NCBI GenBank assembly: GCA_022565365.1
Contig: JAIUMW010000003.1
Span: forward strand, 1-43,700
Length of the DNA stretch: 43,700 bases
Direction: 5' to 3'
DNA from: Oceanicaulis sp.
GTDB lineage: Bacteria; Pseudomonadota; Alphaproteobacteria; Caulobacterales; Maricaulaceae
In this document: positions 23,501-43,700 of the stretch, in pieces
Layout: every line of letters begins with the position of its first letter
How positions within the stretch are numbered: position 1 is the stretch's first letter
Made by a program: the position numbers and the translations under genes
The notes under the pieces: generated by a model
The model's database searches: none
What the model saw: only the letters and a program-made list of their open reading frames with translations
What the model was told of the DNA's origin: nothing

Positions 23501-23659
23501 ACGCCGCTCTTGGGCGACGCCTTCTTCCAGGGCATGGCGATGACCATTATCTCGGGCCTCGCCTTCGCCAGCATCATCACGCTGGTGGCGGTGCCGGCGA
23601 TCTATGCGCTGTTCTTCGGCATAAGGGCGCCAAAGCGTGAACCCGCAAGGCTTCAGTAG
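20573..23659 (+). CDS. RND efflux transporter permease
   Basis: 1028 aa; GMLVDNALVVTENM (TM4), SGMLIKNAIVLIDEID (TM10). Confidence 0.95.
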   Translation: MADTKSSAAMSVARLSIEKPVLTWMVILACFLGGIYGINTVAQLEDPAFTIKQALVYTAYPGASAEEVEREVTERLETAIQQMPQLEAVYSKSQPGISEITVEISDRYASGDLPQIWDELRKRLTDAAPGLPPGARTPQVLDDFGDVYGIFYAVTAPGYTDAEIRDIAQMLRRELLVTPGVSKVSTDGVPEERIYIEIPQENIVQLGLPVGQVLETLSSENVVVSAGEVTAGDLRVRVDMPGSIGGVESISNLLISPRDSGQTLRLSDLGEVIRAPVERAEVYIFHNGEAAFTLGVSGLPSAYIVDVGRAVEARLALIAQDLPLGVEIAPIYKQHRVVESSINNFLISLTASVAIVIGVLCLTMGWRAGVAVGSVLLLTVLGTLFFMSVFGITMQRISLGALIIAMGMLVDNALVVTENMQVAVQRGVKRLKAAEEAAANTQWPLLGATVIGIMAFSGIGLSPDSTGEFLFSLFAVIGISLLLSWVLALTVGPMIAYHLFKSERGTVTEPYAGRLYRGYGAILIGALKRRWITVGALAAITVTSYWGFGFVNASFFPNSNTPMFFVSLNQAQGTDVLASRDLARDLARWTSTQPGVTQVDAFAGRGATRFMLTYNTEQPNAAFAQLIIQTADMRDIPDVEARVLDYLAQDYPHVQARSDRIVFGPPSGAQLEARFQGPDSHVLRELGETAIARLREEAGVRDLRTDWRNQALTLRPQIIEAPTRTVGVTRGDIGEALRLATDGDQIGVYREGIDLIPIVARAPASERAQPDNLSDRLIWSPAQNAYVPMSQVVSGFTLEAEETLILRRDKVRTLTVQANPQTGETAARAFARFSAVVNAMELPRGYSGEWGGEYAANQMANESLGGGLPISFIGMLAVSFLLFMTVRQPLIVWLIVPMSICGVTAGLLLTGIAFSFTALLGLLSLSGMLIKNAIVLIDEIDRRIREGEAPWGALVDGSVSRLRPVLLAAGTTILGMTPLLGDAFFQGMAMTIISGLAFASIITLVAVPAIYALFFGIRAPKREPARLQ

Positions 23660-24672
23660 CGCGGCCCCCTGATCCGCACCTCGATCCACTCAAGCGACCG
23701 GGTCACGCCCATCAGCGAGAAGGTCGCCATCCGGTCCTGGCCGCGCGTGTCGACATATTGCACGGTCAGCCGGCCGCCCCGGCGCATGGCCTCGATCAGG
23801 CGGCGGGTGGAGTCAGGGTCGGACAGCACAAACGCGCCGGACGGATCGGCCGAGTAATGAGTCTGGGGGCGGAACACCACCGGATTGCGCCCGTCGACGC
23901 GCACCGAGATGGCGCGCGCGCCATCCACCGGGTGCTGATCGGACGTAAACACGATGTCATAGCCCTGACCGGTCGGCCGCGCGCGCACCTCAAGCCGGTG
24001 GCCGGACTGGCCGTCCCCGCCCGCCGTGGTGTAGGCGCCGCACATGCCGCCGCGGCGGCAGCTGGCCGTCCACTGCTGGAAGCGCTCGGTCTCCACCGCG
24101 CAGAACGGGCCTTCGCAAATGCCTGGGTCAGAACCGCCCGGCAGGCCCGGAAGACCCTGTCCGGGCGGATAGCCCGGCGCGCCGCCGCCCGCATCGATCT
24201 GGCTGGCCAGCTCGGCGAGGCGCGCGCGCTGGGAGCGCAGCAGCGAGACCCGGCACGACGTGGCCTGGAGATTACGCTCGGCGAAGGTCTGGCCCAGCAT
24301 GGCGCCTTCAAAATCGCACTGGAAATCAAGATAGCTGCGCCAGGTTTCGCGCGCAAAGCGCAGCGCCTCGGCCTCGGTGGCGCGCTGATAGCTGTCCTCG
24401 CGGCCCGTCACCATCGAGATCAGCCGCTGATGGGTGATGTCGTAATGGCTCTCGGCTTCCAGCAGCAGGCGCGACAGGCAGGCGCGCAATTCCAGCTCGC
24501 CCCCGGCCGTGCGCCGGCATTCATCCAGCGGCGTCGCGGCGTAATACCCCCCCCATCCGGTCTGCGCCGGGGCCCATCGGGCGTTGTCGGCGATGGCCGG
24601 GGCCGCAATGAAGACAGCGGCGATGGCAAGCACTTTGGCGGTGGCGGACAAAGACATGGCTAACCCCTTCAA
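23653..24672 (-). CDS. Secreted DUF1311/LprI-like domain protein
   Basis: 339 aa, signal peptide; DECRRTAGGELELRACLSRLLLEAESHY...RFARETWRSYLDFQCDFEGAMLGQTFAERNLQATSCRVSLLRSQRARLAEL. Confidence 0.7.
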   Translation of the reverse strand: MKGLAMSLSATAKVLAIAAVFIAAPAIADNARWAPAQTGWGGYYAATPLDECRRTAGGELELRACLSRLLLEAESHYDITHQRLISMVTGREDSYQRATEAEALRFARETWRSYLDFQCDFEGAMLGQTFAERNLQATSCRVSLLRSQRARLAELASQIDAGGGAPGYPPGQGLPGLPGGSDPGICEGPFCAVETERFQQWTASCRRGGMCGAYTTAGGDGQSGHRLEVRARPTGQGYDIVFTSDQHPVDGARAISVRVDGRNPVVFRPQTHYSADPSGAFVLSDPDSTRRLIEAMRRGGRLTVQYVDTRGQDRMATFSLMGVTRSLEWIEVRIRGPRY

Positions 24673-25030: not shown

Positions 25031-25167
25031 CGGGCGCGCCGATTGCCGTCATCGCTCGCGTGTGAACGCGATTGCGTGCCCTTGCGGATGTGATAATGTT
25101 CGCGCCGCTCCGGAGCCGCTGTCGAGGACAGTTGGCTGATAGCCGGAGCTACCTGGATGACACCATC

Positions 25168-25494
25168 ATGAAGACCATTTTGTTTGGCGCTGTGCCGGCC
25201 CTGCTGCTGACGTCGGCCTCGTTTGCTTCGCCTGCCGGCCAGGTGTTCGAAGTGACCGGCCCCGAAACCGCGTTCACAATCGCTCTGGACGCTGATGGCG
25301 GCTATGTCCTCACCGCTGGCGAGACCGAAGCTGTCGGCGCCTGGACCCTGGAAGATGGCGTTCTGTGCCTCGTCTCCGCGGACATCGAAGAGCCCAATTG
25401 CGGGACCTGGACCGATCTTGAAGTCGGCGAGTCGAACGTCTCGGCCGATTGGTCGCAAGACGGCTCGGAACACACGATCCTGCGCGTCGAGTAA
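25168..25494 (+). CDS. Small secreted protein, paralog 1 of a tandem family
   Basis: ATG at 25168 within ORF 25072..25494; MKTILFGAVPALLLTSASFASPAGQVFEVT...DGGY...GAWTLEDGVLCLV...NCGTWTDLEVGESNVSADWSQDGSEHTILRVE. Confidence 0.8.
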   Translation: MKTILFGAVPALLLTSASFASPAGQVFEVTGPETAFTIALDADGGYVLTAGETEAVGAWTLEDGVLCLVSADIEEPNCGTWTDLEVGESNVSADWSQDGSEHTILRVE

Positions 25495-25516
25495 ATCACC
25501 GCACCGACTGAAAGAC

Positions 25517-25549
25517 GCCCCGCGCCGCAACCCGGCGCGGGGCTTTTTT
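25517..25549 (+). terminator. Rho-independent terminator after paralog 1
   Basis: GCCCCGCGCC-GCAACCC-GGCGCGGGGC followed by TTTTTT. Confidence 0.9.
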
Positions 25550-25736
25550 ATGCCTGCGCCTCCAGGCGCGGGCCCCGGGCAGCGCGTCGCCAAATCTCCG
25601 CGCCTGCCATGCCGCGGAACCGCCCGCCAAGCGCTGCGTTGTCTCGTGACAGTAACGGCGTCGCTCTGGATAAGCTCCGCCGGGCGGGCTCTGCGCTTCA
25701 GAGCTTTATCGAAGTAAAACGACAGGAGATAGTACC

Positions 25737-26078
25737 ATGAAAACCGCTGCGAAGAGTTTTGTGTTTGGCGCTGCGTCAGCTCTGTTTCTGGCGTCGGCGG
25801 CTTATGCTTCACCAGCCGGACAGGTGTTTGAAATAACGGCTGGCGAAACCAGCTACAGCCTCTGGTTTGATGAGGATGGCGGCTATATCAAACAGACCGA
25901 GGACGGCGCCAAGGTCGGCGCCTATACCTTTGAGGATGGCGAGCTGTGCCTGACCTCCGCCGAGACCGAGGAGGCGCGCTGCGGCGAGTGGCCCGCCGAT
26001 CTTGCGGTGAACGAGTCAGCTGTCTCGACCGACTGGTCCGATGACGGGCTGGAGGCCACCATTCTGCGCGTCGAATAA
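25737..26078 (+). CDS. Small secreted protein, paralog 2
   Basis: MKTAAKSFVFGAASALFLASAAYASPAGQVFEIT...DGGY...GAYTFEDGELCLTS...RCGEWPADLAVNESAVSTDWSDDGLEATILRVE. Confidence 0.85.
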   Translation: MKTAAKSFVFGAASALFLASAAYASPAGQVFEITAGETSYSLWFDEDGGYIKQTEDGAKVGAYTFEDGELCLTSAETEEARCGEWPADLAVNESAVSTDWSDDGLEATILRVE

Positions 26079-26100
26079 GGCGCAACTGCGCTCCACAGTC

Positions 26101-26133
26101 GCCCCGCGCCGCAGCCCGGCGCGGGGCTTTTTT
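26101..26133 (+). terminator. Rho-independent terminator after paralog 2
   Basis: GCCCCGCGCC-GCAGCCC-GGCGCGGGGC followed by TTTTTT; stem identical to the one at 25517. Confidence 0.9.
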
Positions 26134-26220
26134 ATGCGCGATACAAACTGGCCCGCCTCTTGCGTCCCGCCCCGCGATAGTGAAGTCTGCCACCAATGCA
26201 TTCGTGGGGGGTGTAGAGCC

Positions 26221-26598
26221 ATGAGACGTCTAGTGAAATCCATACTCGCCGCCGCACTGGCGCTGCCAGCTTGCATGGCGCTGATGCTGGCCGCGCCGGA
26301 CACGGCCCAGGCGCAGTCCGCGCTCGGACCGGAGGGGCGGGTTTATGCCGTAGAGACCCGGCAGGGGCGCTACACCGCACAGTTCCGCCGGGGCGGCAGC
26401 TATCAGGACTCCCGTCCGCGCTCAGGCTCCTGGCAGTTTGACGGCCGCACGCTGTGCGTCCTCTTCCATGGCGCTTCGCGCACCGAGCCTGAATACGAGA
26501 TCTGCAAGCCCTATCGCGAACTGGCGGTGGGCGAGAGCTATGAGACCAACGCCTGGACAGCCGACGGAAGTCCGGCGCGCATCACGCGGGTGGAATAG
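26221..26598 (+). CDS. Small secreted protein, divergent paralog 3
   Basis: ATG at 26221; signal peptide then GPEGRVYAVET...GGSY...SGSWQFDGRTLCVLF...EICKPYRELAVGESYETNAWTADGSPARITRVE. Confidence 0.78.
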   Translation: MRRLVKSILAAALALPACMALMLAAPDTAQAQSALGPEGRVYAVETRQGRYTAQFRRGGSYQDSRPRSGSWQFDGRTLCVLFHGASRTEPEYEICKPYRELAVGESYETNAWTADGSPARITRVE

Positions 26599-26706: not shown

Positions 26707-27072
26707 ATGGGACGTTTATTCGGTCAGTTGACCGGCCGCTCGCTGCGCCTGAGCATCACGCTCTTTCTGGCCTTCATCCTCTCCTACATCTTCCTGGGCG
26801 TGCTCGCCTTCCAGTTCCCCGAAACCTTGCGGGTGATGCTGCGCTGGGCCGCGGACGCCGAGCGCTTCCTGACCTCCACCGGCCTGCCCGCGCGCTATAA
26901 TAATTTCATCGAGATCTATCTGAACAAGGCCACCATCCTCTTGGTCTTCCTTACGGTCATCGCGCGGATCGTCATCGCCGTTTTGGCGACGGTTGCCAGC
27001 GAGTCGATCCGCAGCCTGAACCCTCCGCCTGCGAAACATGCCGGCGTGCGCAAGATGGCCCCGGCGCGCTAG
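26707..27072 (+). CDS. Small membrane protein, two predicted TM segments
   Basis: ATG at 26707 in ORF 26653..27072: MGRLFGQLTGRSLRLSITLFLAFILSYIFLGVLAFQFPETLRVML.... Confidence 0.6.
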   Translation: MGRLFGQLTGRSLRLSITLFLAFILSYIFLGVLAFQFPETLRVMLRWAADAERFLTSTGLPARYNNFIEIYLNKATILLVFLTVIARIVIAVLATVASESIRSLNPPPAKHAGVRKMAPAR

Positions 27073-27199: not shown

Positions 27200-27928
27200 A
27201 TGTCTGATCCCCGCCCCCACCATGTGCTGGTCGTCGATGACGATGACCGCATCCGCGACCTGCTGGCGCGCTTCCTGCGCGCCAAGGGCCTGCGTGTCTC
27301 GCCCGCCCCGGATGGCGCGCGCGCCCTGGCCCTGATGGAGCAGATCAGCTTCGATCTGGTGATCCTCGACGTGATGATGCCGGGCCTTGACGGTTTCGAG
27401 GTGACCCGGCGCGTGCGCGAGCGCGCCGCAACGCCGATCCTGCTGCTGACCGCGCGCGGCGAGCCCGAGGATCGCATTCGCGGCCTGTCGCTGGGCGCCG
27501 ATGACTATCTGGCCAAGCCGTTCGAACCGGAAGAACTGGTGCTGCGCGTGCAGGCGATCCTGCGTCGCTCTCTGCCGCGCATGCTGGGTCCGGCCCGGGT
27601 GAGCTTTGGCGAGTGGATGTTCGAGATGGCCACGCTGCGCCTGACGCGCGGCGGCCAGCCCGTGCGCCTGACCGGCGGAGAGGCGGCGCTGTTGCATGCG
27701 CTGGCCGCCCAGCCGGGCGAACCGGTTAGCCGGGCCGCCCTGTCCGAGCGCGCCGCCGCCGGAGCGGGCGAGCGCGCGGTGGATGTCCAGATCACCCGGC
27801 TGCGCCGCAAGGTGGAGGCCGACCCCAAGGCGCCAGTCTGGGTCCAGACCGTACGCGGCGAAGGCTATCGCCTGGTCGCCGAGCCGGTCTATGCGCCCGT
27901 GACGCCCGCCACGCCTGCGGGCGGGTGA
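27200..27928 (+). CDS. OmpR/PhoB family response regulator
   Basis: Receiver (VLVVDDDDRIRDLLARFL...LVILDVMMPGLDGFEV...LGADDYLAKPFEPEEL) plus winged-helix domain. Confidence 0.95.
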   Translation: MSDPRPHHVLVVDDDDRIRDLLARFLRAKGLRVSPAPDGARALALMEQISFDLVILDVMMPGLDGFEVTRRVRERAATPILLLTARGEPEDRIRGLSLGADDYLAKPFEPEELVLRVQAILRRSLPRMLGPARVSFGEWMFEMATLRLTRGGQPVRLTGGEAALLHALAAQPGEPVSRAALSERAAAGAGERAVDVQITRLRRKVEADPKAPVWVQTVRGEGYRLVAEPVYAPVTPATPAGG

Positions 27929-29250
27929 GGCCGGTCATGCGATTCCGCCTGCGAACCATCATGCCCAAGGGCCTGTTTGCGCGCTCGCTGCTGATCATCG
28001 TACTGCCCGTGGCGCTGATGCAGGGCGCGGTGACCTGGGCGTTCTTCGAACAGCACTGGCGCTCGACCACGGCGCGCCTGTCAGAGAACATCGCCGGTGA
28101 TGTCGCCATGATTGTGCAGATGCACGCGCGCTCCAGCGCTGAGGAATTCGAGCCCATCGCGGACCTGGCGTTCTCCACCCTCGGCCTCAGCGTGGAGTTC
28201 CGCCCCGGCGACACCCTGCCCACCACGCGGCGCACCGCCTTCTTCCGGGTGCTGGACCGCACCTTGCGCCGGGCCCTCGCCGGCCAGCTGACCGAACCCT
28301 TCTGGTTCGACACCACCCGCTATCCCAATTACGTCGACCTCCGCGGGGAGGCGGGCGGCGGCGTGCTGCGCTTCATCGCTGCGCGTGATCAGGTGTGCGC
28401 CACGACGGGGCATATCTTTGTCATCTGGCTGAGCGGGGCCACGCTGCTCCTGCTGACCGTCGCCATTTTGTTCATCCGCAATCAGGTCAAACCGATCCGC
28501 CACCTCGCCGAAGCCGCCGAGGCGTTCGGGCGGGGCCAGGACGTGGAGCGCTTCAAGCCCGCCGGCGCGCGCGAGGTGCGTCAGGCCGCCCGCGCCTTCC
28601 TGGACATGCGCGCGCGTCTGAAACGCCATATGGAGCAGCGCACCCAGCTTCTGGCCGGGGTCAGCCATGATCTGCGCACGCCCCTCACCCGCCTGCGCCT
28701 GCAGCTGGCTCTGATGCCCGATAGCCCCGAGCGGGCTGCGGCCCGCAGTGATGTCGCCGATATGGAGGTGGCGCTGGAGGAATATCTCGCCTTCGCGCGC
28801 GGCCAGGCCGGCGAGGAGCCCGGCCCGGTGGACCTGACCGCTCTGTGCGAGACGCTGGGCGATGATGCGGCGCGTCAGGGCGTAGATCTGCGCCTGGATC
28901 TGGAAGAGGACCTGACCGTCGAGGCCCGCGAGGGCGCGCTCAAGCGTGCTCTGGTCAATCTGGTGCAGAACGCCGCCGCCCATGGACAGGACGTGGCGCT
29001 GAGCGCCCGGCGCCAGGGACTGCGCATCGAGGTGATCATTGATGATGACGGGCCGGGCATCGACCCGGACCTGCGCGAGGACGCCTTCCGCCCGTTCAAC
29101 CGGCTTGATGAATCGCGCAACGCCAACCGCAACGGGGTGGGGCTGGGCCTGGCCATCGCACGAGACCCCGTGCGCGCCCATGGCGGGGAGCTGCGCCTGG
29201 AGGACTCGCCGCTGGGGGGCTTGCGCGCGCGCATATCCCTGCCTGCCTGA
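27925..29250 (+). CDS. EnvZ-like sensor histidine kinase
   Basis: TM-periplasmic-TM-HAMP, H-box LLAGVSHDLRTPLTRLRLQL, G box GVGLGLAIARD; overlaps the response regulator. Confidence 0.95.
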   Translation: MRPVMRFRLRTIMPKGLFARSLLIIVLPVALMQGAVTWAFFEQHWRSTTARLSENIAGDVAMIVQMHARSSAEEFEPIADLAFSTLGLSVEFRPGDTLPTTRRTAFFRVLDRTLRRALAGQLTEPFWFDTTRYPNYVDLRGEAGGGVLRFIAARDQVCATTGHIFVIWLSGATLLLLTVAILFIRNQVKPIRHLAEAAEAFGRGQDVERFKPAGAREVRQAARAFLDMRARLKRHMEQRTQLLAGVSHDLRTPLTRLRLQLALMPDSPERAAARSDVADMEVALEEYLAFARGQAGEEPGPVDLTALCETLGDDAARQGVDLRLDLEEDLTVEAREGALKRALVNLVQNAAAHGQDVALSARRQGLRIEVIIDDDGPGIDPDLREDAFRPFNRLDESRNANRNGVGLGLAIARDPVRAHGGELRLEDSPLGGLRARISLPA

Positions 29251-41333: not shown

Positions 41334-42167
41334 CTACCGGTTGAACAGAGACAGGATGATCTGCGGCTCGGAGTTGGCGATGGACAGCGCCTGCACCCCC
41401 AGCTGCTGTTTCACCTGCAGGGCCTGGAGGCGCGCGCTTTCCTTGGCCAGGTCGGCGTCCACCAGATTGCCCACGCCCTTGGTCAGCGCGTCGGTCAACT
41501 TGCCTACAAACGTGCGGTGCGCTTCCAGCTTCTTGCCGTCGGAGCCCAGATTGGCCAGCGCCGCATTGACGTTGTCCAGGCTCGCCGAGATGGCGCTGAC
41601 GACCTGGGCGGCCAGCGTGACCGTGCCCAGGCTCGCCGTGTTCTCGATGGTGATGATGGCCCCGGAGAAGGACATGTCGTGGGCCGACAGGTTGATGGTG
41701 CGCGACGCATCAGCGTCGGCGAGGAAGTCGATGCCGTTGGTCAAGGAGCCGTTGAGGATGTTGTCGCCGTCAAACTCGGCATTGGAGATGATCACATTGA
41801 CCTGCTCCATCAGCGCTTTGAAGTCGCCGTCATAGGCCTGGCGCGCAAACGCGTCGATGGAGGGGTCCATGGCGGCGGTGGCTTTTTCGCGCATCTCGAT
41901 CAGAAGGTCCGAGATCGCTTCGGCTGCCGCGATGCCGACGTCGGTGATCGACACCGCCCGGTCCAGCGAGCCCTGAACCGAGCCCAGCGCGCCGATATCG
42001 GCCCGCATGCTCTGGGCGACGGCGAACACGGCTGAATTGTCCTTGGCCCCCGACACACGCAGGCCGGTGTTGACGCGGTTCTGGACCCCGTTGATGTCCT
42101 GATTGGTCTTGTTCAGGTTCTGCAGGGCGATCATCGCCGATGTGTTGGTATGGACGCTCAAGGCCAT
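41334..42167 (-). CDS. Flagellin
   Basis: ATG at 42167: MALSVHTNTSAMIALQNLNKTNQDINGVQNRVNTGLRVSGAKDNSAVFAVAQSMR...LQALQVKQQLGVQALSIANSEPQIILSLFNR. Confidence 0.95.
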   Translation of the reverse strand: MALSVHTNTSAMIALQNLNKTNQDINGVQNRVNTGLRVSGAKDNSAVFAVAQSMRADIGALGSVQGSLDRAVSITDVGIAAAEAISDLLIEMREKATAAMDPSIDAFARQAYDGDFKALMEQVNVIISNAEFDGDNILNGSLTNGIDFLADADASRTINLSAHDMSFSGAIITIENTASLGTVTLAAQVVSAISASLDNVNAALANLGSDGKKLEAHRTFVGKLTDALTKGVGNLVDADLAKESARLQALQVKQQLGVQALSIANSEPQIILSLFNR

Positions 42168-42221
42168 AGGTCTTCTCCTGTATCCCCTCGCCGCGTTCCG
42201 CAGCGCTGTCGCACGAACAGG

Positions 42222-42237
42222 AGCAAGGCCCGCACCA
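42222..42237 (-). promoter_or_regulatory. Candidate sigma-54 promoter for flagellin
   Basis: Minus strand TGGTGCGGGCCTTGCT versus consensus TGGCACGRNNNTTGCW; about 55 nt upstream of the flagellin ATG. Confidence 0.7.
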
Positions 42238-42366
42238 CTTGGCGGGCCGGACACATATCGCTTTGAAATAATGGAGTTGGAGGAAATGAGCTCGCGCCCG
42301 GCAAGTCCAGGCGGGCGCCGGCATGCTTAATTTCTGCCGGGCGGGCCGGTCAGTCTTGCCGGGCGG

Positions 42367-42915: not shown

Positions 42916-43700
42916 CTAGCGGAAGAAGCCCAGCACCGTGCTCGGCGCCGAGTTGGCGATGGAGAGCGCCTGAATGCCCAGCTGCTGCTTGACCTGCAGC
43001 GACTGGAGACGGGCGGACTCTTTGGCCAGGTCAGCGTCGACCAGATTGCCGATACCCTTCTCCAGCGTATCCGACAGCTTGCCCACGAAGGTCTTGTGAA
43101 TCTCAAGAGACTTCGAGGCCGTGCCCAGACGCGCCAGAGCCGAGTTGATGTTGTTGAGCGAGGTTTCGATATTGCCGGCGATGTCAGACGCCTGGGTCGA
43201 GGTGGCGAAAGACGCCGCCGCGGCCAGGGTCACGATGGACCCGCCCAGGCTCATATCCTCGTCCACGACCGAGATCGTGTTGGAGCCGTCAGCATTGGCC
43301 AGAGCCGAGATGCCGCCGGTGACCGAGCCGTCGATCAGGTTGATGCCGTTGAACTCGGCGTTCTCCACGATGGTCGTGATCTGATCACGCAGCGCGGTGA
43401 AGTCCTCGTTCAGGGCCGTACGCGACGCCGTGTCCAGCGAAGTGTCGGACGCGGCGAGCGCCTTTTCCTTCATCTCGATCAGAAGATCGGAGATCGCCTC
43501 GCCAGCCGCCAGGGCCACATCGGTGACCGACACGGCCAGATCCAGCGACTGATTGACGGCGCGCAGGCCGCCCACTTCATCGAGCATGTTCTGGGCGATG
43601 GCGTAAATGCCGCCATTGTCCTTGGCCGACGAAACCGCCAGGCCGGTATTGATCCGGTTCTGGACCTGCATCAGGTCCTTGTTGGTCTTGTTGAGGTTCT
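42916..43700 (-). CDS. Flagellin (5' end outside window)
   Basis: ...NLNKTNKDLMQVQNRINTGLAVSSAKDNGGIYAIAQNMLDEV...LQSLQVKQQLGIQALSIANSAPSTVLGFFR; open reading to the window edge. Confidence 0.93.
   Translation of the reverse strand, partial: NLNKTNKDLMQVQNRINTGLAVSSAKDNGGIYAIAQNMLDEVGGLRAVNQSLDLAVSVTDVALAAGEAISDLLIEMKEKALAASDTSLDTASRTALNEDFTALRDQITTIVENAEFNGINLIDGSVTGGISALANADGSNTISVVDEDMSLGGSIVTLAAAASFATSTQASDIAGNIETSLNNINSALARLGTASKSLEIHKTFVGKLSDTLEKGIGNLVDADLAKESARLQSLQVKQQLGIQALSIANSAPSTVLGFFR

Follow-up and report, generated by a model that had tools for sequence, protein, structure and literature searches.

The window, by which we mean the whole stretch of 43,700 nucleotides analysed here (Oceanicaulis sp., assembly GCA_022565365.1, contig JAIUMW010000003.1), carries three tandem genes for small proteins with predicted signal peptides, P1, P2 and P3. 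These are followed by the gene for a predicted inner-membrane protein, M, and, after M, by a two-component pair of the OmpR/EnvZ type, a name that reflects domain content and not orthology. The features of the locus, with the evidence for each, are:

23653-24672, minus strand: LprI-domain gene, divergent neighbour (PF07007, 23.1 bits against a cut-off of 22)
25106-25153, plus strand: palindromic leader of P1, 48 bases (conserved upstream of P1 in six genomes)
25168-25494, plus strand: P1 (paralog 1), 108 aa (open reading frame, alignment, homologs, charge count)
25517-25543, plus strand: intrinsic terminator after P1 (11 G-C pairs, then T6)
25737-26078, plus strand: P2 (paralog 2), 113 aa (open reading frame, tree, AF2 structure)
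26101-26127, plus strand: intrinsic terminator after P2 (almost the same sequence as the P1 terminator)
26221-26598, plus strand: P3 (paralog 3), 125 aa (open reading frame, tree, dN/dS, AF2 structure)
26707-27072, plus strand: M, predicted inner-membrane protein, 121 aa (adjacency, alignment A5, hydropathy)
27200-27928, plus strand: OmpR-type response regulator (PF00072 and PF00486)
27925-29250, plus strand: EnvZ-type membrane histidine kinase (HAMP, HisKA, HATPase_c)

Two neighbouring flagellin-like genes were also recognised by sequence reading at 41334-42254 and 42916-43671 on the minus strand.

Three tandem paralogs and their signals

An earlier note, made from the DNA letters alone, had described P1, P2 and P3 as a tandem family of small secreted proteins, and the three open reading frames do lie where it put them, all on the plus strand and with the lengths that it gave. 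They are certain to be coding, judged by their homologs in many genera and by a dN for P3 that is far below dS between species. Alignment recovered the signal peptides, which end in A-x-A type sites, and export of all three proteins is a well-supported prediction. A reading of P3 as a lipoprotein (LPAC) was rejected, as its nearest orthologs do not keep that cysteine. The two cysteines, the (P)xGxVxx(V/I)(T/E) start, LxVxES, WxxDG and the terminal I(L/T)RVE were likewise found in the alignment. Two further motifs had been drawn too strictly: 'GGxY' is right in outline, being GGY in P1 and P2 and GGSY in P3, and 'GxWxxxDGxLC' is exact in P1 only, P2 having Y for W and P3 reading GSWQFDGRTLC.

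P1 is 58% identical to P2 and 35% to P3, in keeping with the description of P1 and P2 as close and P3 as divergent. A direct search of the genome with P2 returned P1 at E 1e-34, P3 at E 3.7e-4 and a fourth, solitary relative on another contig, C66, at E 5e-4. By sequence, the kinship of P3 to P1 and P2 is above chance, because P3 matches P2 at about 4e-4 and groups with homologs that keep both cysteines. The mature P1 protein, of 87 aa, is very acidic (1 basic against 18 acidic residues), as is mature P2; mature P3 is neutral. The fourth paralog (G000:C66:3814-4131; L004, L150) lies 3' of a gene pair whose products look, by eye, like an ABC ATPase and a membrane subunit of the CcmA/CcmB kind. 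Its orthologs occur in many genomes of the bacterial family with neighbours that are conserved within genera, and none of the gene neighbours seen was common to different genera.

In a tree of the family, P3 belongs to an old lineage (98/96 support) common to other genera of the bacterial family, and P2 pairs with its own copy in genome G085 inside the P1 clade (96/96 support), which places P2 as an offshoot of the P1 lineage. The P1 and P2 terminators are nearly identical and lie in a 142-nt direct repeat whose copies are 584 bases apart; gene and terminator were therefore duplicated as one unit. Between species, the mature part of P3 has a dN of ~0.01-0.05 and a dS of ~0.5-0.8 (NG86), values that mark strong purifying selection; P1 evolves faster.

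As RNA, the P1 leader would form a hairpin of 17 pairs with a GGAG in its 3' arm, a possible site of ribosome binding. The leader is nearly invariant in the six genomes, occurs once in its own genome and folds better than shuffled sequences (z ~-2.3). It matched no Rfam family at cut-off, and no covariation was seen across the copies because the helix hardly varies; with neither covariation nor an Rfam match, the leader may be an RNA hairpin or a DNA operator. One weak extra match, in L097, was judged to be chance, since no barrel gene follows it and the open frames around it overlap. Conserved TTGCG...GAT(A/G)-type stretches also occur upstream of P1 (25072-25098) and P3 (26165-26210), and may be promoters of an alphaproteobacterial type outside the sigma-70 scan.

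A family with two conserved cysteines

A profile built from P1-P3 matched 48 of 137 genomes of the same bacterial family; a profile of 32 members matched 138 of 398 genomes of the order; and a profile of 34 diverse members matched 53 of 385 genomes of the class, many with multiple copies. When the phylum was sampled, 24 matches resulted, 23 of them inside the class and one, partial and marginal, outside it. By these searches the family is spread across the alphaproteobacteria and is essentially absent outside the class. The profiles of near and distant members agree, and the two sets overlap. Two or three tandem copies are also seen in several other genera, and no relatives of two distant members were found in plasmid records.

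Among 86 sequences collected, the signature runs in the order DGxY, GxW, first cysteine ((L)C), second cysteine and VGxS/T. None of the 85 complete members lacks either cysteine, the glycine is kept in 82 of the 86 and the tryptophan site holds W, Y or F in 84.

The earlier note had recognised no described family, and had proposed a profile of the three copies, searched against other genomes and Pfam, as the way to check this. That search found homologs across the class, well beyond the one strain, and no match to a characterised family. No Pfam or NCBIfam model scored above cut-off for the window proteins or for sets of 32 and 24 members, and no literature on these proteins was found. The two-cysteine family is, on the strength of these searches, undescribed and unnamed.

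A small beta fold with a two-cysteine core had also been suggested, and structure prediction agrees. AlphaFold2 gives P2 a confident all-beta fold of eight strands (mean pLDDT 86.7, with block means of at least 84 from residue 21 on), and a separate run gives mature P3 eight strands at pLDDT 93.2. The predicted eight-strand fold is well supported, and probably forms a small antiparallel barrel. In the P2 model the cysteines lie in neighbouring strands (69-74 and 80-84), and a cross-strand disulfide is likely because the two invariant cysteines occupy adjacent strands.

Foldseek found no significant solved relative (none with E < 1e-3); its weak matches include many small barrels of lipocalin-like or related type. 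Among solved sequences, a profile search reached the lipocalin-like protein 4zgf (E 1.3e-4 across 31 residues), a weak kinship, and, more weakly still, fatty-acid-binding proteins. Matches to pilus tip proteins in PDB sequences (E 0.004-0.02) were judged to be a chance likeness of beta repeats. The small bacterial lipocalin-like barrels (DUF4847, 4zgf; Lipocalin_4, PF13648; TP0435, 4u3q; 5hal) share with P1-P3 a small exported antiparallel beta fold and are the best fold and profile matches to the family, yet these matches are weak: Lipocalin_4 reached a best E of 0.018 among 24 members, below the Pfam cut-off, and nothing convincing among 32. Unlike these barrels, the P1-P3 family keeps two cysteines without exception and lacks a conserved lipid anchor.

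Membrane protein M and the two-component pair

M has two helices predicted by hydropathy, at ~15-37 and 74-97, a loop at 36-72 with an LPARYNN motif, and basic N and C ends. It has no Pfam match and, to judge from its sequence, represents an unnamed family of two-helix membrane proteins. A ~217-aa open frame in genus g13 contains two M domains, and M has distant relatives elsewhere in the order, outside this bacterial family (E 1e-6 to 1e-11).

Of the 60 genomes in the bacterial family that bear M, 39, from seven genera, have a barrel gene upstream of it in the same orientation, and the gap between the two genes is 73-227 nt in 32 of the 39. The loci that carry the pair otherwise have little in common. 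This recurrent pairing of P3 with an undescribed M is a new finding beyond the earlier note, which also lacked the fourth paralog, the spread of the family through the class, the link to the OmpR/EnvZ-type pair and the conserved P1 leader. In 21 genomes M has no adjoining barrel gene and therefore does not need one there; the link is frequent but not obligatory. None of the barrel members seen outside the bacterial family stands beside an M-like protein. Given the spacing of P3 and M and the absence of any terminator found between them, we infer that transcription of P3 reads into the M gene.

The OmpR/EnvZ-type pair is found near barrel and M genes in two genera, g1 (the genus of this genome) and g8, with changed gene order. 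Genus g1 shows both P3-M-regulator-kinase and regulator-kinase-P3-M, and genus g8 has the order regulator, kinase, barrel, a further gene, M. In those tested g8 genomes whose sequence extends far enough, as in several of g1, the kinase gene precedes the barrel gene. Two genomes of the genus that have no barrel beside M still have M adjoining the regulator. In genera g6, g13 and g15, and in genome G094, the barrel has no such pair nearby. In genus g8 a gene of roughly 200 codons (its size read in L033; L159-L163) lies between the barrel gene and M.

That barrel genes in this bacterial family usually adjoin M, and often an OmpR/EnvZ-type pair, is a hint that they may act in the cell envelope. 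MzrA is an example of an EnvZ accessory protein, and M resembles such proteins in its small size, its predicted place in the membrane and the position of its gene next to an OmpR/EnvZ-type pair; it differs in its two helices and otherwise distinct layout, the comparison being one of layout.

Possible roles of the barrel proteins

The note had offered a periplasmic stress protein, an inhibitor or a small surface protein as possible roles. None gained support: there was no clear match to inhibitors or stress proteins and no sign of surface exposure. The reading that we favour, tentatively and at somewhat less than an even chance, is that P1-P3 are periplasmic partner-binding barrels that work together with M as an envelope module linked to the OmpR/EnvZ-type pair. 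The three proteins would be exported by the Sec route with removal of the N-terminal signal peptide, and the mature protein would fold in the periplasm into the small eight-strand antiparallel barrel, with a disulfide between two neighbouring strands. The P3 transcript would continue into the gene for M, which is predicted to span the inner membrane with two helices and to expose a short loop to the periplasm; the barrel would engage a periplasmic partner or small ligand and act through M, which may anchor it or relay its state, and the barrel-M module would feed, or be controlled by, the neighbouring two-component pair. P1 and P2 would be separately transcribed acidic offshoots with their own terminators, probably serving a different partner or ligand or different conditions.

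A partial parallel is YedD/LptY (9fz5_C), a small lipocalin-like lipoprotein bound to LptDE, the outer membrane translocon (PMC12644819). It too is a small envelope beta barrel, is among the weak Foldseek matches and works by binding a membrane partner. LptY is a lipoprotein, however, whereas the signal peptides of P1-P3 are of the AxA type and lack a conserved lipobox, and the pairing here is with a protein predicted to lie in the inner membrane.

Adjacency to a two-component system may mean no more than being under its control, and the barrels could accordingly be mere targets of OmpR/EnvZ-type regulation: structural or stress proteins, in the periplasm or associated with the outer membrane, that take no part in signalling and do not touch M directly. 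Regulator genes commonly adjoin their target genes; the separate terminators of P1 and P2 and the conserved P1 leader are as expected for regulated single genes; and the class-wide family occurs mostly without M or the kinase. We consider this rather unlikely; taken alone, it leaves unexplained the pairing of barrel and M in seven genera where the kinase is not near. A stronger version of the favoured module, in which P3 and M form a two-part envelope sensor, seems improbable: M would hand on to the EnvZ-type kinase a signal (a ligand, or a misfolded or cell-wall product) bound by the periplasmic barrel, and P1 and P2, as duplicates under separate regulation, would serve as decoys or as other sensing heads.

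The barrels might instead inhibit envelope hydrolases, whether proteases or lysozymes, in the manner of AprI/Inh, the potempins or MliC/PliC. The AprI/Inh metalloprotease inhibitors (PF02974) are periplasmic two-Cys beta barrels of ~100 residues, and P1-P3, as small secreted two-cysteine barrels, resemble them in size and design. Potempin E and the cathepsin C exclusion domain are among the weak fold matches, and 2 of 24 members touch PF02974 at E ~0.02 (best 0.023). The LprI-domain gene, whose lysozyme-inhibitor-like product also has a weak DUF1176/IalB-like stretch, adjoins barrel genes in three genera, including g15 and g19. The Inh matches are nevertheless below cut-off, the curated model (cut-off 25 bits) finds nothing in the genome itself, hhalign against a small sample of two alphaproteobacterial Inh proteins gave a probability of 0.7%, and no protease gene was recognised near P1-P3; MliC was absent among the Pfam matches listed to E 1 for 32 members and among the 25 families listed for 24 members. 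Membership of the Inh family was rejected by the direct model search and the profile comparison, and we hold an inhibitor role to be quite improbable. The least probable reading is carriage of a small hydrophobic ligand (lipid, haem or quinone) in a lipocalin-like cavity, which the weak resemblance in profile and fold to lipocalin-like and fatty-acid-binding proteins would suit, but the Foldseek likeness is below significance and a barrel of ~90 residues may be too small for a real cavity.

On present evidence, a modest observation has led to two unnamed families and a conserved pairing, and not to a categorically new system. Both families, the class-wide two-cysteine barrel and M, are now defined with clear signatures, and their genes offer a testable genetic link to an OmpR/EnvZ-type system. 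Furthermore, the barrel profile can be used by annotators, and few periplasmic functions are known in prosthecate marine bacteria.
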